A stretch of DNA of 24,547 nucleotides from a virus. This document shows, piece after piece, positions 5,998 through 16,265 of this stretch. The stretch lies in the IMG/VR virus record IMGVR_UViG_3300034073_002108, positions 1 through 24,547 of that record, one strand, 5' to 3'. The notes beneath the pieces are model-generated. The model had not been told where the DNA came from. It saw only the letters and a list, made by a program, of their open reading frames with translations, and did not search any database. The position numbers and the translations under genes were made by a program. Each line of letters opens with the position of its first letter. Position 1 is the stretch's first letter.

Positions 5998-6233
5998 TCC
6001 GTCCTCCACGCCCGTAAGTATTTCAGGTATCCAATCCGTTCCCGCATCCGCATGCGACGCCGCAGTCGTGTGCACAAGACGCGGAACTCATGCTGATCGT
6101 CAGACAGGTGGGCCGCAGCTTCGATCGTCGCTTCCATGGCCTGGGGCAGTGAGTGGCAGAGTTTAACCACGGTCCCGCGGCGGGTGGTGACGCGGAAACA
6201 TTGATCAAGTGGATTCCATTCGCTGCGGTACAT
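5994..6233 (-). CDS. Small basic phage protein
   Basis: 79 residues, MYRSEWNPLDQCFRVTTRRGTV.... It is the first gene left of the large GTCNN tract and ends with an ATGA overlap. Its ribosome site (AGGA, about 10 nt upstream) is weak. The first 30 residues look like a small beta sheet, and the C-terminal part is Arg-rich and helical (LCTRLRRRMRMRERIGYL). Function unknown; nucleic acid binding would fit the charge. Confidence 0.55.
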   Translation of the reverse strand: MYRSEWNPLDQCFRVTTRRGTVVKLCHSLPQAMEATIEAAAHLSDDQHEFRVLCTRLRRRMRMRERIGYLKYLRAWRTE

Positions 6234-6260
6234 GCTGGTGCGTCCTGCTGGTGGTAATGG

Positions 6261-7000
6261 AGTCTTGTCGTGTCCCGTCGCGTCCTGTCAAGTCCTGTCA
6301 AGTCCTGTCGCGTCCTGTCCTGTCCGGTCCTGTCCTGTCCGGTCACGTCGGGTCTAGTGCAGTCATGTCTAGTGCAGTCGAGTCCAGTAATGTCGCGTCA
6401 CGTCGTGTCGCGTTTTGTCAAGTCATGTCATGTCGCGGTGTTTCGTCTCTTCTCCAATCGCGTCTGGTCTTGTAGCGTCTCGTCCAATCAAGTCACATCG
6501 CGTCGGGTCGAGTCGTGTCATGGTGTTCCATCTCCCATCTGAATCGAGTCTTGTCTTGTTGCATCTGGTCGCGTCTCGTCACGTGATGTCATGTCATGTC
6601 TCGTCACGGTGTCTCGTCTCTCCTTTGACTCGAGTCTGGTCTTGTCGAGTCCGGTCCTGTCGCGTCGAGTCAAGTCCTGTCCGGTGTCGTCGTGTCGCGG
6701 TGTATCGTCTCTCCTCTGAATCGAGTCTGGTCTCGTCACGTCATGTCGTGTCTTGTCGAGTCATGTCGTGTCTTGTCGAGTCACGTCGTGTCCGGTGTCG
6801 TCGTGTCGCGATGTATCGTCTCTCCTCTGAATCGAGTCTGGTCTCGTAACGTCCCGTCTTGTCCGGTGTTGTCACATCGAGTCCCGTCGGGTCAGGTCGC
6901 GGTGTCTCGCCTCTTCTCTGAATCGAGTCTGGTCTTGTCTCGTTAGGTCTAGTTGCATCCTGTCTTGTCCAGTCCTGTCATGTCGATTCTTGTCACGTCT
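6261..7000. repeat. GTCNN pentamer tract I with higher-order ~85-111-bp units
   Basis: About 740 bp without a credible gene. From 6261 to 6435 the sequence is 35 consecutive 5-base units, nearly all NGTCN. Beyond that, blocks of GTCNN alternate with a conserved core of about 36 bp beginning CGGTGT(A/C)TCGTCTCT and containing TGAATCGAGTCTGGTCT. Cores begin at 6436, 6521, 6607, 6698, 6809 and 6900, so spacings are 85, 86, 91, 111 and 91; the last four differ by multiples of 5. Phase is kept inside each block and shifts at cores. The plus strand stays open in several frames at once because the unit rarely makes a stop, so long ORFs here are an artefact. It lies between early genes whose neighbours otherwise overlap. 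Confidence 0.95.
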
Positions 7001-7009
7001 CACAACCAC

Positions 7010-7573
7010 CTAGAGTTGTTTCCACGTCATCTTTTCGACGCTGAACCTGCCCCAGTAACCGTTGTTTCTCGGTCTGAAGTACCCGATGCCAATGAACTGC
7101 CCAGCGTCGATCAAGTGCTGCTCAAAAACATCGTTATCGATGATCTCATCCAACACACAAAACTCGACGTCTGCGGTCCACTCATCGACAAACGGGAACG
7201 TCTTCCAGACGCGCTTGCCACCACCGCGCTTACCATCTGCGGGAACGTGCAGCCGCAGCCCTTGCACGTCGTCGATGTGTACTCCAAGTGGCACGGGCTT
7301 TGTGCACAACACACCAGCCTCGAAATGCTTCGTGTATGTGCTTTTACCCTTGCCAGGGATCTGGATGCTCTTGTACTTAGCAGCTTCACTCAGGCAGTTC
7401 TTAAACGCCGTGGGCGGGATGAACACCAGCCCATCTTTACCTACGTGGCATCGCTGTTTCCACGTCCGCTCCTCGAACTGGTCGTGCGTTTCGTCTCGCG
7501 ACTTTTTTTCGAGAATCGCCTTGCTCTGCCCGTAGGGTGACGCACTCGCCAGTTTCGCAATCGCTACTCTCAT
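7010..7573 (-). CDS. Phage protein of unknown function with possible Cas7/RAMP-like features
   Basis: 187 residues, GGAGGT before the ATG at 7573. Visible pattern: N-terminal strand (MRVAIAKLASASPYGQS), then GLVFIPPTAFKNCLSEAAKY at residues 48-67, a GKGKSTYTKHF segment, and a C-terminal glycine-rich IGIGYFRPRNNGYWGRF at 161-177. RAMP/Cas7 proteins often have an IPGSSLKG-type turn-helix and a C-terminal G-G-x-R-x-x-G-x-GRF loop, so a related RRM-like fold is conceivable. This is only a pattern resemblance; I also associate this sequence type with uncharacterised phage early genes. The gene stands alone between two GTCNN tracts instead of overlapping neighbours, and is preceded by a 36-bp leader identical to that of the next gene upstream. 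Confidence 0.7.
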   Translation of the reverse strand: MRVAIAKLASASPYGQSKAILEKKSRDETHDQFEERTWKQRCHVGKDGLVFIPPTAFKNCLSEAAKYKSIQIPGKGKSTYTKHFEAGVLCTKPVPLGVHIDDVQGLRLHVPADGKRGGGKRVWKTFPFVDEWTADVEFCVLDEIIDNDVFEQHLIDAGQFIGIGYFRPRNNGYWGRFSVEKMTWKQL

Positions 7574-7578
7574 CTTCT

Positions 7579-7614
7579 TACCTCCGTTAGTGGTTGTGAA
7601 ATGAAATCAGGTCT
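7579..7614 (-). repeat. 36-bp leader with ribosome site, copy A
   Basis: Exact 36-bp copy of the segment at 8265-8300. On the minus strand it reads from the end of the GTCNN tract through TTTCACAACCACTAACGGAGG to the ribosome site of the 7010-7573 gene. The identity covers the Shine-Dalgarno sequence and the first tract bases, which suggests duplication of a tract-leader unit. Confidence 0.93.
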
Positions 7615-7746
7615 TGTCTTGTCGCATCACGTCACGTCATGTCATGTCTGGTCCAGTGTGGTCCTGTCCGGTCTTGTCACGTCGTGTCGTGTCATGTCAC
7701 GTCCGGTCTTGTCATGTCCTGTCCAGTCCTGTCACGTCACGTCTCG
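7610..7746. repeat. GTCNN pentamer tract II
   Basis: From 7611 to 7745 there are 27 uninterrupted 5-base units in one phase; 25 begin with GTC (the exceptions are ATCAC and GTGTG). No conserved core is present, unlike tract I. The right end runs into the 3' end of the gene at 7737-8261 and supplies its stop codon. No gene is visible in it. Confidence 0.95.
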
Positions 7747-8261
7747 CCATTCGTCACATGGAATAATCGAAATAGCGACTTAGTGGGGATCTTCTCACTG
7801 GCCTGAGCCACCGCGCCCTCGATCTTCTTCCGACTGCTGCGGTTGTTCATCAGCCGCACTGCACCAAGGATCGATGCGTTCAGGTTGTGTGTGACTTTCT
7901 GTGACTCGTCCAACGCCTCGTACTTCACCACCGCCATCTTTCGTAATGATCGCGTCGCTGTCCGCACAATCGACAGCCTTCCACTTTCACCTTCCGCGCT
8001 TGCCTCGTGCGGTGTGGCCAACTTAATACCCTCACGCCACACTGTGGCAAACCAGGCGTTGGCCTCCCGCAGACAGATGTTCCGAGCTGTCTGCACGATG
8101 CCTCTTTTCACCCTAAGATCGCACCCAGCAACTTTGCTGAGTTGTTCGTAGCTCAACACTGTGTCGAAATTCTGCTTAGCCGCATGGGCGATCAGGAAAT
8201 CCGCCAACTGCCTCGCCTCCATCGAGCACTGGAACGCTGGGGTTACTGAGTTTCCAGCCAT
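7737..8261 (-). CDS. Phage protein with likely winged-helix domain
   Basis: 174 residues, MAGNSVTPAFQCSMEARQL..., with GGAGGT 5 nt before the ATG. The segment TVLSYEQLSKVAGCDLRVKR followed by GIVQTARNICLREANAWFATV has the look of a helix-turn-helix/winged helix (YEQLS..AG.D......I..AR..L). The C-terminal half is basic and helical (TRSLRKMAVVKYEALDE, NNRSSRKKIEGAVAQA). Proteins of this pattern occur in phage early/replication regions, but no biochemical role is known to me. The last codons and the TGA stop come from GTCNN units of tract II. It lies between tracts II and III. Confidence 0.65.
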   Translation of the reverse strand: MAGNSVTPAFQCSMEARQLADFLIAHAAKQNFDTVLSYEQLSKVAGCDLRVKRGIVQTARNICLREANAWFATVWREGIKLATPHEASAEGESGRLSIVRTATRSLRKMAVVKYEALDESQKVTHNLNASILGAVRLMNNRSSRKKIEGAVAQASEKIPTKSLFRLFHVTNGET

Positions 8262-8264
8262 GGC

Positions 8265-8300
8265 TACCTCCGTTAGTGGTTGTGAAATGAAATCAGGTCT
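8265..8300 (-). repeat. 36-bp leader with ribosome site, copy B
   Basis: Identical to 7579-7614 over 36 bp, including TAACGGAGGTA, the ribosome site for the gene at 7737-8261. It joins tract III directly to that gene. Confidence 0.93.
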
Positions 8301-8476
8301 GGTCTGGTCGTGTCATGTCACGTCCGGTCCTGTCTCGTCACGTGATGTCATGTCATGTCACGTCGCTGTGTCTCGTCTCTTCTCTGGATCGAGTCAGGTC
8401 ATGTCCCGTCTCGTCGCGTCGGGTCTGGTCTGGTCGAGTCAAGTCGCGTCGTGTCCAATCGGGTCTGGTCCAGTTG
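8296..8476. repeat. GTCNN pentamer tract III
   Basis: About 180 bp of GTCNN units with one degenerate copy of the tract I core (around 8364-8400, GTGTCTCGTCTCTTCTCTGG). The 23-bp stretch at 8331-8353, starting GTCTCGTCACGTGATGTCAT, also occurs in tract I near 6574, so the tracts share ancestry. The stretch 8477-8530 to the next gene shows nothing further. Confidence 0.93.
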
Positions 8477-8530
8477 TCTTCAAAATCCAGCCCGCCGTAG
8501 CGGAAGTTACAGTGGGCTGGGGTTCGCCAG

Positions 8531-8725
8531 CTACGAGCTGACGTGGGAACGTTGTTTCTCTTCCTCTCGCTTCTCGCGCTGTTTCGCCACCCAGCGTAAA
8601 AACGAATCAAAGTCCACCGTCTCGTCCGCCTCCAGGATCGGTCGCCCAGGTTCATCGGGCAGGTACAGACGATGGCGGTTGGTGATCGGGTCCAGGTGGA
8701 CATGCAGGCGTGACTGGGGGGTCAT
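8531..8725 (-). CDS. Small phage protein
   Basis: 64 residues, MTPQSRLHVHLDPITNRHRL..., with ATGA overlap to the methyltransferase stop. The first half looks like a beta hairpin (VHLDPITNRHRLYLPDEPG); the second is a charged helix (LRWVAKQREKREEEKQR). It is the last gene before tract III. No function assigned. Confidence 0.6.
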   Translation of the reverse strand: MTPQSRLHVHLDPITNRHRLYLPDEPGRPILEADETVDFDSFLRWVAKQREKREEEKQRSHVSS

Positions 8726-9684
8726 CGGTGGTGCTCCTGGTCTTCGACGACAATTGCTGACGGCGACGCGATGCCGCCACGTTCGACGTGTTTGCGAATA
8801 CTCGGCATGGAGTCAAACAGTGAATATTGTCTGTAGGTGTCGGCGGCAGCCCGAGCCAGATTGCGACAGGCCGCTTCGTGGTAGGATTGCTTTAGCTCAA
8901 TCCCATAAAACCTCCTACTTTCTGTAATGGCCACGTAGCCCTCCGATCCGATCCCAGTAAACGGAGAGAACACGATCTCGCCTGGATTGGTGTACAGTTT
9001 GACAAGGCGTCGAATAACTTCGAGCTGTAATGGGCAGATGTGCTTGGTGTCTTTCTCGTCTCTGCCTTCAGCCACGTTGAGCGTGTCCGTGTTCTTTATC
9101 TGCCGCCAATCCCATACTCCCTCGGCCCATGCAATCCATTCGTTGCGACTGACTTGCCCTTTCGAATCGACTGGCACTTCGTTGTCTCCCGGCGTGTTGA
9201 ATTTGAGGATGTAATCGCTCAACGCCGGCCTGCTCTTGGCCCGGTCGCGTTCCAATCCCGCAAACTGCAACTCGCGACTGCGAGTGCGGATCGCCTGGCT
9301 CTGCGGGTTCTTGGTGATGGGGATATCGTTTCCAAATATCAGACCGGCCCGCTCCGCCAATCGAATATTCAGACCACGGAAATCATACAGCCCGCTACCA
9401 CTAGATCGCTTCATACGAGGGATCTGCATCACATGCACACAGACAGCCCGCCCAGGCTTCACAAGTCGCACCAACTGATTGTAAAACCAGCTCAGATGCA
9501 GCTTGGCGTCTCCTGCGAAATTCTCGCTGTTGCCGATATCGCACTCGCTGTCGGTGTAAGCGTAGAGCGATGGAAACGGCGGGCTGAACACCGCGAAATC
9601 AACGCAAGCCTCGGGCATCTCGGGCATGTGTTCGATGCAGTCACCACGTTCAATGTGCCACTGCCTGCCAGCTAGGATGTCCAT
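8722..9684 (-). CDS. Site-specific DNA methyltransferase (β-class order, N6-A or N4-C)
   Basis: 320 residues. Motif IV, FSPPF, is at residues 33-37 and the SAM-binding motif I region, IVFSPFTGIGSEGYVAI, is near the C-terminus at about 243-259; this IV-before-I order is that of β-class amino-methyltransferases. Also visible are GRAVCVHVMQIPR and TESRRFYGIELKQSYHEAA. Such enzymes methylate adenine N6 or cytosine N4 at short target sites. AAGGAG precedes the start, which overlaps the helicase stop by 13 nt. No restriction endonuclease is seen nearby, so it is probably a solitary methylase protecting phage DNA from host restriction or marking it; the target site cannot be read from sequence. Confidence 0.88.
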   Translation of the reverse strand: MDILAGRQWHIERGDCIEHMPEMPEACVDFAVFSPPFPSLYAYTDSECDIGNSENFAGDAKLHLSWFYNQLVRLVKPGRAVCVHVMQIPRMKRSSGSGLYDFRGLNIRLAERAGLIFGNDIPITKNPQSQAIRTRSRELQFAGLERDRAKSRPALSDYILKFNTPGDNEVPVDSKGQVSRNEWIAWAEGVWDWRQIKNTDTLNVAEGRDEKDTKHICPLQLEVIRRLVKLYTNPGEIVFSPFTGIGSEGYVAITESRRFYGIELKQSYHEAACRNLARAAADTYRQYSLFDSMPSIRKHVERGGIASPSAIVVEDQEHHR

Positions 9685-11159
9685 GACAGCTCCTTAAATA
9701 ATCGCTCTTGTTCCTCGGTGTCGTGTTGAACTCGCTTTGCTTTGCGTAGCACGTTGGCTACCATGGGCTCCTCGATGTCGGTCACGGGAATGTGCACATG
9801 GAGGGCTCGCTTGGAACCGATGCGGTTGGATCGCTTCACGGCCTGATAGTAGGACTCGTAACTGTCCTGCAATCCCGAGAACACCTGCCGCGTGGCCACT
9901 TCGAGATTGAGGCCAAATCCCAAGATCTTTGGCTTCGTGATGAGAGTGCGGAGTTGGCCGGCTTTGAACGCAGCGATCAGTTCATGTCGCTGCTGAATGG
10001 GAGTGTCGCCGGCAATCGTGCCAGCATCTGGCAGCTCCCTCTCCAACCGCGATTGCTCCTCGTTGTAGATGCACCACAGCAACGTGCTTTCGTGTTGTTC
10101 CCATGCGGCGATCAGCTTAGCGATAAACCGCGGTTTCAGCGTTTCGATGTGCTTTGTTTTGTAGCAGCCTTTGGCGATCTGGCCGTAGGCAGCCCGCTTT
10201 GAAATCCCACCCAGATCAACCGTGAACAGTGTGCTATCCATACTGGAAACTAGGCGTCGCTGCTCGTCGCTCAATGGCACTTCGTGGATATGTACGTGGA
10301 TCGGCGGCACGGTGCCTGCGGTGTTGTTCTGCCAGCCATAGGTAGCTGGATCAGTCAGGAAGATGCACCAGTGCGACAGGGCTTTGTAAAAGGCGCCGAG
10401 TGCATGCTCCTTGAGCACCCACCGCTCTTGGGTTTGCCCACGATTAACAAAGAAGGTGGACAGAAACGCGTTGACAGTTGGGAACGCATCGAGAAACACT
10501 GCGTGATTGGCGTATTCGATGCGATCATTCGGAGCTGGTGTGCCCGTCAGGCACAGCTTCCATTTCAGGCCCTTTCCCAGCTCGATCAGCTTCGTGCCCC
10601 ACTTTCCATAGTGGCTCTTGAGTAAACTGGATTCGTCCAGAGCCAGTCCGCCAAGGCGTCCTGGAACCAAATCGTCACGGATTGCCTCGTAGTTGGTGAT
10701 GGCGATTTCACCTTGGCAGTGGTTGAGCCAGTCCTGGAGTTTCGCTGCCTTGATGTAAGGCGGTGCGAATCCGTAGCGTGCTTCACATTCACCCTGTGTC
10801 TGCGGCACGACCATCAGCGGGGAGACGATCAGGAAGCCACGACCGTTGCGAGCCATTTCCTGGCGGGCCGCCTGGGCGAACTCCAGCATGATAAACGTCT
10901 TTCCGAGTCCGCAGTCCGCGAACACCGCATACTTGCGTTTGCGAATGGCCATGGTGGTGATGTCACGCTGGTAGTCGTAGAGGAAAGGAGATGGCGTCCA
11001 GTCAACATCGTGGTACTCTGCTCTGCGGCCGAGGATCTGTTCAGCGTATTCATCAGGGAATTCGGCCAGTCGCCCCTGGATCTTCCAGGACGGCAGCCTC
11101 TTGATAGCTAGAAACTGGTGATAACTATCAATGCTTTTCGGGTCCAGCAATACGTTCAT
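9672..11159 (-). CDS. SNF2-type superfamily 2 helicase/ATPase
   Basis: 495 residues. Motif I is FADCGLGKTFIMLEFA (80-95, Walker A), motif II LALDESSLLKS (172-182; DESS instead of the more usual DEAH), motif III LCLTGTPAPND (202-212), and motif VI YYQAVKRSNRIGSKRALHVH near residue 440, typical of SNF2/SWI2-like proteins. These ATPases translocate on double-stranded DNA. The gene is coupled to the methyltransferase after it (13-nt overlap) and by ATGA to the small HTH-like gene before it. Phage helicases of this type are often placed next to recombination or modification genes; the exact role (replication, recombination, remodelling, anti-restriction) is open. Confidence 0.9.
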   Translation of the reverse strand: MNVLLDPKSIDSYHQFLAIKRLPSWKIQGRLAEFPDEYAEQILGRRAEYHDVDWTPSPFLYDYQRDITTMAIRKRKYAVFADCGLGKTFIMLEFAQAARQEMARNGRGFLIVSPLMVVPQTQGECEARYGFAPPYIKAAKLQDWLNHCQGEIAITNYEAIRDDLVPGRLGGLALDESSLLKSHYGKWGTKLIELGKGLKWKLCLTGTPAPNDRIEYANHAVFLDAFPTVNAFLSTFFVNRGQTQERWVLKEHALGAFYKALSHWCIFLTDPATYGWQNNTAGTVPPIHVHIHEVPLSDEQRRLVSSMDSTLFTVDLGGISKRAAYGQIAKGCYKTKHIETLKPRFIAKLIAAWEQHESTLLWCIYNEEQSRLERELPDAGTIAGDTPIQQRHELIAAFKAGQLRTLITKPKILGFGLNLEVATRQVFSGLQDSYESYYQAVKRSNRIGSKRALHVHIPVTDIEEPMVANVLRKAKRVQHDTEEQERLFKELSWTS

Positions 11160-13125: not shown

Positions 13126-13130
13126 CGAAG

Positions 13131-13214
13131 TGCTCCGAGCGTGAGTCGAACACGCACCCCCTTTCGGGGACATGGCCCTCAACCATGCGCGTCTACCAAT
13201 TCCGCCATCGGAGC
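13131..13214 (-). tRNA. tRNA-Leu (anticodon GAG)
   Basis: Complete 84-nt tRNA. Acceptor stem GCTCCGA/TCGGAGC with discriminator A, D-loop GGCGGAATTGGTAGACGC typical of leucine tRNAs, anticodon stem CATGG/CCATG with loop TTGAGGG giving GAG, a long class II variable arm (TCCCCGAAAGGGGG), and T arm GCGTG-TTCGACT-CACGC. CCA is not encoded. It reads CUC/CUU. It lies between the excisionase-like gene and the integrase, so it may be phage-carried or be the reconstituted attachment site. No clear promoter upstream. Confidence 0.95.
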
Positions 13215-13872: not shown

Positions 13873-14697
13873 ATGGCGGGAGAACCGCCTATGCTCGCCA
13901 CCGACATCCTGCAAGCCTACCTCGATCGCCACCCCTACGGGGTTGCCGCTTCCACGGAAGCCCAGCTCCGCAGCACCTGGCGCGTCTACCTCCGGTCCTG
14001 CCGATCGTCCGGGTTAGACGCCTTCGACTGCGCACGGGCGAACGACTGGCTGGACAGCCTCCGCGAAACCCACCGGCCCGACACAATCCGCACTCAACGC
14101 GGCAACCTCCTGGCCGTCTGGTGGTGGGCGTACCGGGAAGAACTCGTAGACGAGCCACCGCTGCGGCTGCGGCGACTGAGACCCATCTCCCGATCCCCAG
14201 AGGCCTGGACGCTGGAAGAAGTCCATAGGCTCACTGAGATGGCGGACACAGCCAGCATCTGGTGGGGCAGTCTTGTGCGAGTCGGCTATGACACCGCTGC
14301 CCGGCTGGGCGATCTTCTGCGGCTGCGGGTGGCTGACGTGACTGGAGACGTGATTTCCTGGCGGCAGGGCAAGACGGGCCGTGCCACACGAGCTAGGATT
14401 CGCCCAGAGACGCGGGATAAGCTGGAGGTGCAATGCAGGGGGAAGACGCCCGAGGCCATCATCTGGCCGCTGTGGGGCAGGAGGGAGGCATTCTACCGGA
14501 GGTTCCGCAGACTCGTGGAGGTGGCGGGAATCAGGCGTGGCACGTTCCGCTGGCTCCGCCGTGCGGCTGCCACCCAGATGGAGCGGGTGGCTCCAGGCCG
14601 CGGGACCGAGCTGCTCGGCCATCGCAGTAGAACGACAACCGAGCAGTGGTATATTGATCGGGGGCAGTTATCCGCGGCGCCGCTTCCGCCGTGGTAG
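13873..14697 (+). CDS. int: Tyrosine recombinase (phage integrase)
   Basis: 274 residues, a compact integrase. The N-terminal core-binding domain spans about 1-105 and the catalytic domain 110-274. Catalytic residues: R144 in AARLGDLLRLR, K167 in RQGKTGRA, R229 in RWLRR, H250 in LLGHRS and Y260 in QWYID. The usual HxxR box is R-W-L-R, i.e. the first His is Arg. It catalyses site-specific integration, with the excisionase-like protein as likely partner. A start at 13891 (MLATDILQAYL) has a better ribosome site (GGGAG). The gene is visibly more GC-rich than its neighbours and lies next to a complete tRNA-Leu, a common integrase target. Confidence 0.92.
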   Translation: MAGEPPMLATDILQAYLDRHPYGVAASTEAQLRSTWRVYLRSCRSSGLDAFDCARANDWLDSLRETHRPDTIRTQRGNLLAVWWWAYREELVDEPPLRLRRLRPISRSPEAWTLEEVHRLTEMADTASIWWGSLVRVGYDTAARLGDLLRLRVADVTGDVISWRQGKTGRATRARIRPETRDKLEVQCRGKTPEAIIWPLWGRREAFYRRFRRLVEVAGIRRGTFRWLRRAAATQMERVAPGRGTELLGHRSRTTTEQWYIDRGQLSAAPLPPW

Positions 14698-15683: not shown

Positions 15684-16265
15684 TTAGACAACTGGTGGCA
15701 CGTATCCGAAACGCTCAATGTCATCCGCGCAAATATCTGCGACTAACTCCACGGCAGCGGATGTCCACAGAGGCTTTTGTCCCTCCGACTGATTTACTAC
15801 TGGTACTTCCATTGGGCAATCCAACCGTGAACTGATTGCAGTAAATGGCTGGTCATCATACTGGTACACGTCCACTCCATCACCGGCATAGGTCGCCCAG
15901 AATCCTGGGCGTTTGCATAATGTGCCGTGCTTGGCGATAACTTCCAAGCCTTTCGTAAATCCAGCATTTACTACGGAATGGCAATAGTCTTCAATTTCGT
16001 GGGCTGTCCTCGTAAAATTATGCCAGTGCATCAAGGCACACCAACGGTAGTGGCTCATAAAAATGTCCCATGGCGACCGCATAATGGTAAAAAACGAGAA
16101 TGAGGGGAACTGCGGCTGCAGCTCTAAGTACGTTGCATGGATGCGTGATTCCCAAAAGTCCACTGTGGAGCGCACGAAATATTGCTCAATCGCCTGAGAC
16201 AGTGCCATGCCGCCGGTTCGCGGAATATGAATAAATATCGTGCTGCGATCCCAGATGATTACCAT
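15684..16265 (-). CDS. PAPS-dependent carbohydrate sulfotransferase
   Basis: 193 residues. IFIHIPRTGGMALSQAI (10-26) is the 5'-phosphosulfate loop of carbohydrate sulfotransferases (consensus HIPKTGG). FTIMRSPWDIFMSHYRW (59-75) matches the 3'-phosphate site (RxPxxRxxSxY, here with F in place of R). The C-terminus DDIERFGY fits the family's (D..(Y/F)..FGY) ending. These enzymes move sulfate from PAPS to sugar hydroxyls. It overlaps the glycosyltransferase upstream and is followed by the methyltransferase. Phage-encoded carbohydrate sulfotransferases are rare; a role in decorating host surface or virion glycans is inferred. Confidence 0.85.
   Translation of the reverse strand: MVIIWDRSTIFIHIPRTGGMALSQAIEQYFVRSTVDFWESRIHATYLELQPQFPSFSFFTIMRSPWDIFMSHYRWCALMHWHNFTRTAHEIEDYCHSVVNAGFTKGLEVIAKHGTLCKRPGFWATYAGDGVDVYQYDDQPFTAISSRLDCPMEVPVVNQSEGQKPLWTSAAVELVADICADDIERFGYVPPVV

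Follow-up and report, generated by a model that had tools for sequence, protein, structure and literature searches.

VIPR (Viral Interference Programmable Repeat), a virus-borne relative of CRISPR, was described in a preprint of April–June 2026 (PMC13142463). According to its main text, a phage-encoded protein, Vipr, is accompanied by guide RNAs (vrRNAs) of about 100 nt, which consist of 9–16 YNNGG units (GGY/NN) and an invariable 3′ tail. The preprint reports experiments in which the NN dinucleotides pair with double-stranded DNA (dsDNA), with one base skipped between pairs, and thereby direct programmable repression; the Vipr of Escherichia phage SUSP1 is a dsDNA binder that represses from either strand, and rival prophages and satellites make up most of the natural targets (PMC13142463). 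All VIPR types are said to use GGY/NN “or a related consensus,” with reference to fig. S17 of the preprint, and the system, with its gapped guide code, is proposed as the ancestor of CRISPR (PMC13142463). The window analyzed here, a stretch of 24,547 nt of viral DNA (IMG/VR record IMGVR_UViG_3300034073_002108, positions 1 to 24,547), contains three tracts of GTCNN pentamers around two small genes, and very probably holds a VIPR system of a tailed phage in a GAC/NN variant, because the same two genes, for a Vipr-like RAMP protein and a vap-like winged-helix protein, flank such arrays across contigs.

The tracts lie on the plus strand exactly where a preliminary description of this DNA had placed them (6261–7000, 7610–7746, and 8296–8476), and its unit counts are reproduced if single defects are allowed, with 35 units at 6260–6434 and 27, 25 of them exact, at 7609–7743. 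The GTCNN pattern is confined to this strand in all three tracts. The longest exact runs comprise 19 units (6262–6356) and 17 units (7661–7745), and the longest run in 100 simulations of the window with a third-order Markov model is 4 units; by autocorrelation at period 5, the check that had been proposed, identity at lag 5 is 0.59–0.72 in the tracts vs about 0.26 in control DNA. Since the sense strand is the minus strand, shared with both neighboring genes, the unit is GACNN, and the minus-strand GAC-NN ladder envisaged earlier is borne out. A higher-order period of 86–111 bp, absent from the preliminary description, is superimposed on the pentamers: blocks of 12–17 units are separated by a conserved non-pentamer element of 25–26 nt, which reads approximately GATTCAGAGGAGAGACGAGACACCGC on the minus strand, and the final units ahead of it (..GACCAGACTC) are likewise mostly constant. 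Divided in this way, the tracts give ten guide blocks and seven tails of 25–26 nt. Triplets that deviate in phase mostly do so by a transition. The NN, pooled over 189 distinct runs, are near random; all 16 dinucleotides are present and adjacent NN are nearly independent of each other. An Rfam search gave nothing convincing (one sub-threshold match outside the arrays and no hammerhead), blastn of the tract against INPHARED gave no match, and the literature searched yielded no planctomycete pentanucleotide repeats.

Nine GTCNN units were sought in 2.9 million viral contigs (IMG/VR), with the reversed pattern CTGNN as the control and an NN entropy above 2 bits as the definition of degeneracy. 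GTCNN gave 108 stretches, 66 of them degenerate, and CTGNN gave 72, none of which was. A low-complexity satellite grown by slippage, or an assembly artefact, is scarcely credible as a source of the tracts in view of this control, of the identical multi-block arrays that recur in separate records (L033, L066, L108, and L135), and of the NN themselves, which slippage alone would leave uniform and which are nearly random; the claim that the tracts are not a simple microsatellite is thus upheld. Duplicated unit strings do occur in some arrays (L336–L339) and speak for such an origin, and because of them slippage or unit shuffling is taken to contribute to array change. A scan of bacterial and archaeal genomes for 13 units returned only two clearly degenerate arrays among the matches listed (119), one of which, from Geobacteraceae, carries both partner genes; among the matches listed, the degenerate pentamer form is mainly viral. 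In seven contigs (L031, L038, L049, L051, L072, L093, and L103), GAC arrays are broken by single units of 4, 7, or 9 nt (for example GACT and GGCACTC) and have no long tails, and along part of the L072 array a non-pentamer unit recurs every 34–39 nt; arrays punctuated in this way are possibly the “staggered arrays” of the preprint.

The partner genes emerged when open reading frames from 69 array loci, some of them near-copies of each other, were clustered without prior assumption. Two families dominate, present at 44 and 33 of the 69 loci, with the next family at 8 or fewer; both nearly always adjoin an array, and their members in the window are 7010–7573 and 7737–8261. Genes flanking an array mostly share its direction (102 of 125 upstream and 89 of 123 downstream neighbors).

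The product of 7010–7573 is confidently predicted to be a single-domain Cas7/Csm3-like RAMP protein. Its family profile matches PDB 36pp, the “SUSP1 Vipr protein,” with an E value of 2.1e-14; its AlphaFold2 model has a mean predicted local distance difference test score (pLDDT) of 95.7; and the top structural matches of this model by Foldseek/VIA, type VII Cas7 and Csm3 (Z 12.4), span it entirely. All 35 family members examined (35/35) are assigned to phrog_4652. A glycine-rich C-terminal loop (G-loop) is conserved, residues 158–177 of the window Vipr being GQFIGIGYFRPRNNGYWGRF, and the protein is, as expected of a Vipr, a minimal RAMP with an RRM core and a G-loop that is homologous to those described. 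A TRAP-like mode of binding, in which RNA triplets are separated by 2-nt spacers, was considered but dropped once the RAMP partner had been found. Divergent Vipr homologues also occur with no pentamer array detected nearby, one beside a DNA methyltransferase gene on a plasmid of Azospirillum oryzae (L313, 2357–3121) and one in a genome of the Geobacteraceae set (L318).

The second family, found in 33 array contigs, always adjoins an array. The AlphaFold2 model of its window member (mean pLDDT 91.8) has an N-terminal winged helix and C-terminal helices, and structure searches with it gave weak winged helix-turn-helix matches. In hhalign comparisons the family aligns with the gene that follows vipr in Pseudomonas phage LESphi2 (E 8.6e-6) and with the vap gene of phage tootiki (E 2e-4), vs 0.26 for a control methyltransferase, and these alignments suggest, with moderate confidence, kinship to the known vap genes. 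The two-gene cassette common to many contigs fits the minimal VIPR locus, vipr plus vap.

GGY pentamer arrays occur immediately upstream of vipr in LESphi2, in DSL-LC04, and in the Felixounavirus tootiki, the protein of which is similar to SUSP1 Vipr. In addition, 80 loci were fetched by Vipr sequence alone (49–70% identical to the window Vipr) and the triplet was chosen unsupervised on the vipr strand at a score of at least 15; NN pentamer arrays were found on this strand in 57 of them. The window has what defines a VIPR guide, namely intergenic pentamers on the vipr strand in which the triplet is constant and the NN are hypervariable, and 8 of its 10 blocks, at 12–17 units, agree together with the seven tails with the published 9–16 units plus tail (PMC13142463). 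Its triplet is not the strict GGY but is covered by the preprint's words “or a related consensus.” Since guide RNAs of GGY/NN pentamers next to a Vipr RAMP gene are described in the preprint (PMC13142463) and the neighbor of the tracts is a Vipr homologue, the earlier statement that no element of such form had been described no longer holds.

As in VIPR type II, represented in the preprint by SUSP1 and a P. fulva prophage (PMC13142463; PDB 36pp), the locus is phage-borne and combines a RAMP Vipr homologue, one small accessory gene for a (here predicted) DNA-binding protein, and intergenic pentamers of constant triplet and hypervariable NN with a conserved tail on the vipr-sense strand. It differs from type II in the triplet GAC instead of GGY, in some ten blocks of up to 27 and 35 units spread over three arrays around both genes, in the position of vap, which precedes vipr with an array between them, and in a tail without a predicted fold; its Vipr also belongs to another clade (profile match E 2e-14, long tree branch). 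LESphi2 and DSL-LC04 (loci L314 and L315) have a Vipr homologue with a GGY array of 9–10 units upstream, and in LESphi2 the gene after vipr resembles the accessory family; in contrast to the window, the sequence read from each of the two contains a single short GGY array, and Vipr identity is about 26–31%. Class 1 CRISPR effectors of the Cas7/Csm3 type share the RAMP fold and the glycine-rich loop with the window Vipr, but the latter is a single-domain RAMP, a pentamer guide replaces the spacer, and there is no repeat-spacer array: a repeat search of 6200–8500 revealed none, and among the 20 window proteins scanned there was no sequence match to Cas families and no cas gene beside vipr.

Independent evidence that the NN are exchangeable guides comes from near-identical phages with swapped NN. 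L329 and L330, whose source contigs (L043 and L050) align over about 9.7 kb at 95.7–99.6% identity, have vipr genes 99.1% identical, GAC 100% conserved, and tails 92–100% identical, whereas the same NN is found in just 15% and 31% of their units, part of which is supplied by the constant last units. In L336–L339, vipr and tails are identical and NN identity in the first array is 16–26% in five of six pairwise comparisons. These loci also differ partly by duplication or deletion of strings of pentamer units, which points to unit-wise recombination or slippage as one source of guide diversity. The NN of GAC arrays were further compared with the dinucleotides of the same phages' genes, both strands mixed, and codon positions 1+2 fitted best in 34 of 51 loci, exceeding 2+3 by 63.6 bits (bootstrap P 0.02) and 3+1 by 369 bits. 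In a second set, picked by protein and overlapping the first only in its GAC members, positions 1+2 were best in 31 of 41 loci (+49 bits over 2+3, P 0.0002; +206 over 3+1). This fit is the trace expected from copying coding DNA with the wobble base skipped, to which a general dinucleotide bias could contribute. In locus L123, seven inter-block tails (about 442–2516, GACNN strand) fold into a long hairpin, and 11 of its 15 pairs have undergone compensatory changes; these tails are under RNA-level constraint and are a good model of a structured guide tail.

The same evidence bears on the possibility that the tracts are a DNA element, that is, an array of protein sites (iteron, centromere, origin, packaging, or recombination) in which GTC is read every half helical turn. 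In its favor, the period is close to half a helical turn, the accessory protein is predicted to bind DNA through a winged helix, and the phage also has a ParB-like gene. Such an element is nonetheless highly improbable, given arrays that mostly follow the direction of transcription between co-directional genes, L123 tails that are constrained as RNA hairpins, NN that are codon-like in composition and turn over while GAC stays fixed, and a partner that is an RNA-guide-binding type of RAMP. Among the options raised in the preliminary description, structured RNA survives along with the ladder and the non-microsatellite character; a protein-binding DNA array, an origin, a packaging element, and a recombination site find no support.

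If the locus operates as a VIPR system, the three tracts would be transcribed from the minus strand as vrRNAs with about ten GACNN blocks, seven of them followed by a tail of 25–26 nt. Vipr subunits, we infer, would coat the vrRNA, one per pentamer, with the G-loop and thumb of each holding GAC and presenting the NN pair. Successive NN would pair with dsDNA with one target base skipped, usually at a codon wobble position, and a 14-unit guide would read 28 of about 42 target bases. Binding would block transcription and repress genes of rival phages or satellites, with the help of the winged-helix accessory protein. Guide processing, dsDNA targeting, the skip rule, repression, and purpose are here assigned by analogy with the GGY experiments reported in the main text of the preprint (PMC13142463).

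Several points weigh against identification as VIPR. No target was found in any search tried: all guides against all collected loci, at skips of 0–3, gave no excess at any skip; in the first all-guide scan, controls with reversed order or swapped NN scored the same as real guides; exact scans of viral contigs for 9–10 units of five guides gave one nine-unit match (L399), which is near chance and does not extend into the neighboring units; and the Geobacteraceae guide had no match in its own genome or in 277 genomes of its class. These failures are unsurprising for an environmental phage. Folding of the window's own tails gave no conserved structure, a crude scan found no sigma-70-like promoter, and two blocks, of 27 and 35 units, are longer than the 9–16 units published (PMC13142463). 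Moreover, because the triplet is GAC and not GGY, the biochemical rules measured on GGY are only carried over to the window. The failed searches would also suit a VIPR-like RAMP–RNA complex that acts on RNA, as type III and type VII Cas7 do, or on the phage's own genes instead of rival DNA, as no DNA target of any kind turned up in the searches tried; the closest folds, type VII Cas7 and Csm3, bind RNA targets, and an ordinary regulatory role for the accessory protein is conceivable. This alternative is unlikely, since the homologous SUSP1 Vipr acts on dsDNA from either strand (PMC13142463), the NN fit codon positions 1+2 best with both strands mixed, as strand-indifferent DNA targeting predicts, and guide replacement between near-identical phages is unlike self-regulation.

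Within the clade of the window Vipr, sequence comparison indicates that a VIPR triplet has switched repeatedly. Before dereplication, the Vipr-selected loci carry GGC (30), CGC (12), GAC (8), GTT (2), CTC (2), GTC (2), and GGT (1). The Vipr tree requires at least 21 triplet changes among 72 labelled proteins and at least 11 for GAC vs the rest, of which the starred branches alone force 4. The window Vipr (GAC) is sister to that of L319 (GGC) with a support of 93, and other Viprs 60–70% identical to it also carry GGC arrays. After dereplication, Arg165 and Tyr174 in the glycine-rich loop are present in all 32 clade proteins with GGC, GGT, CGC, GTC, or GTT arrays and absent from the two CTC proteins; among GAC proteins, Arg165 is lost in 25 of 31 and Tyr174 in 23 of 31, the window Vipr having Tyr165 and Trp174. 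When only proteins selected without regard to their arrays are counted, Arg is lost in 5 of 7 GAC proteins vs 0 of 22 GGY proteins (Fisher P 2e-4). Because only three independent contrasts are well supported, about two in the direction of loss with GAC and none against, the association of GAC with Arg/Tyr loss is a lead, not proof. Relative to the main text of the preprint (PMC13142463), the GAC triplet and repeated switching within one clade are new; GAC itself is not claimed as unreported, because the preprint allows “or a related consensus” by way of fig. S17. The scaffold half of the VIPR code is thus not fixed, as a clade 49–70% identical to the window Vipr uses at least seven triplets, and how a RAMP reads the guide scaffold, and whether it can be re-coded, becomes directly testable. 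Tentatively, the fixed triplet might be an evolvable identity tag that Viprs switch with matching G-loop changes (Arg165/Tyr174). Each VIPR phage in a co-infection would thereby load none but its own guides, and VIPR would comprise mutually orthogonal codes that differ through a few residues.

Features of the window locus are collected in the table below; the leaders of vap and vipr are the same 30-nt element.

Table. Coordinates of the candidate VIPR cassette in the window.
Feature	Position	Strand	Evidence
vipr gene, 187 aa, predicted single-RRM RAMP (Cas7/Csm3-like)	7010..7573	-	PDB 36pp profile match, AlphaFold2, Foldseek, phrog_4652
vap-like accessory gene, 174 aa, winged helix, predicted DNA-binding	7737..8261	-	array adjacency, AlphaFold2, hhalign
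vrRNA block 1 (array 3), 16 GACNN units	8391..8470	-	
26-nt inter-block tail GATCCAGAGAAGAGACGAGACACAGC	8365..8390	-	
vrRNA block 2 (array 3), 14 units, continues into vap leader	8295..8364	-	
Leader GATTTCATTTCACAACCACTAACGGAGGTAGCC with Shine-Dalgarno GGAGGT, ahead of vap	8262..8294	-	read directly from sequence
vrRNA block 3 (array 2), 27 units (25 exact)	7609..7743	-	
Leader GATTTCATTTCACAACCACTAACGGAGGTAAGAAG ahead of vipr	7574..7608	-	
vrRNA block 4 (array 1), 15 units	6925..6999	-	
Tail	6899..6924	-	
vrRNA block 5 (array 1), 13 units	6834..6898	-	
Tail	6808..6833	-	
vrRNA block 6 (array 1), 17 units	6723..6807	-	
Tail GATTCAGAGGAGAGACGATACACCGC	6697..6722	-	
vrRNA block 7 (array 1), 13 units	6632..6696	-	
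Tail	6606..6631	-	
vrRNA block 8 (array 1), 12 units	6546..6605	-	
Tail	6520..6545	-	
vrRNA block 9 (array 1), 12 units	6460..6519	-	
Tail, 25 nt	6435..6459	-	
vrRNA block 10 (array 1), 35 units with defects, no tail seen beyond	6260..6434	-	

Just upstream of array 3, an inverted repeat (CCAGCCC...GGGCTGG) followed by ATTTTG lies on the minus strand at 8484–8520 and may be a terminator dividing the cassette from the upstream gene. Directly upstream of the cassette, adjacent genes for an N6/N4 DNA methyltransferase and an SNF2-type helicase (8722–11159, minus strand) each match a portion of one large phage family, phrog_16. The window genes include those for an integrase, a tape measure protein, a tail-completion protein, and a replication-initiation protein, and the phage is probably, judging from these genes, a temperate tailed phage. 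A tRNA-Leu (gag) gene at 13130–13214 (minus strand) is located about 660 bp from the integrase gene on the opposite strand (13873–14697, plus strand) and is a possible attachment site. A sulfotransferase-like gene (phrog_3347, E 4e-9) is found at 15684–16265 on the minus strand.
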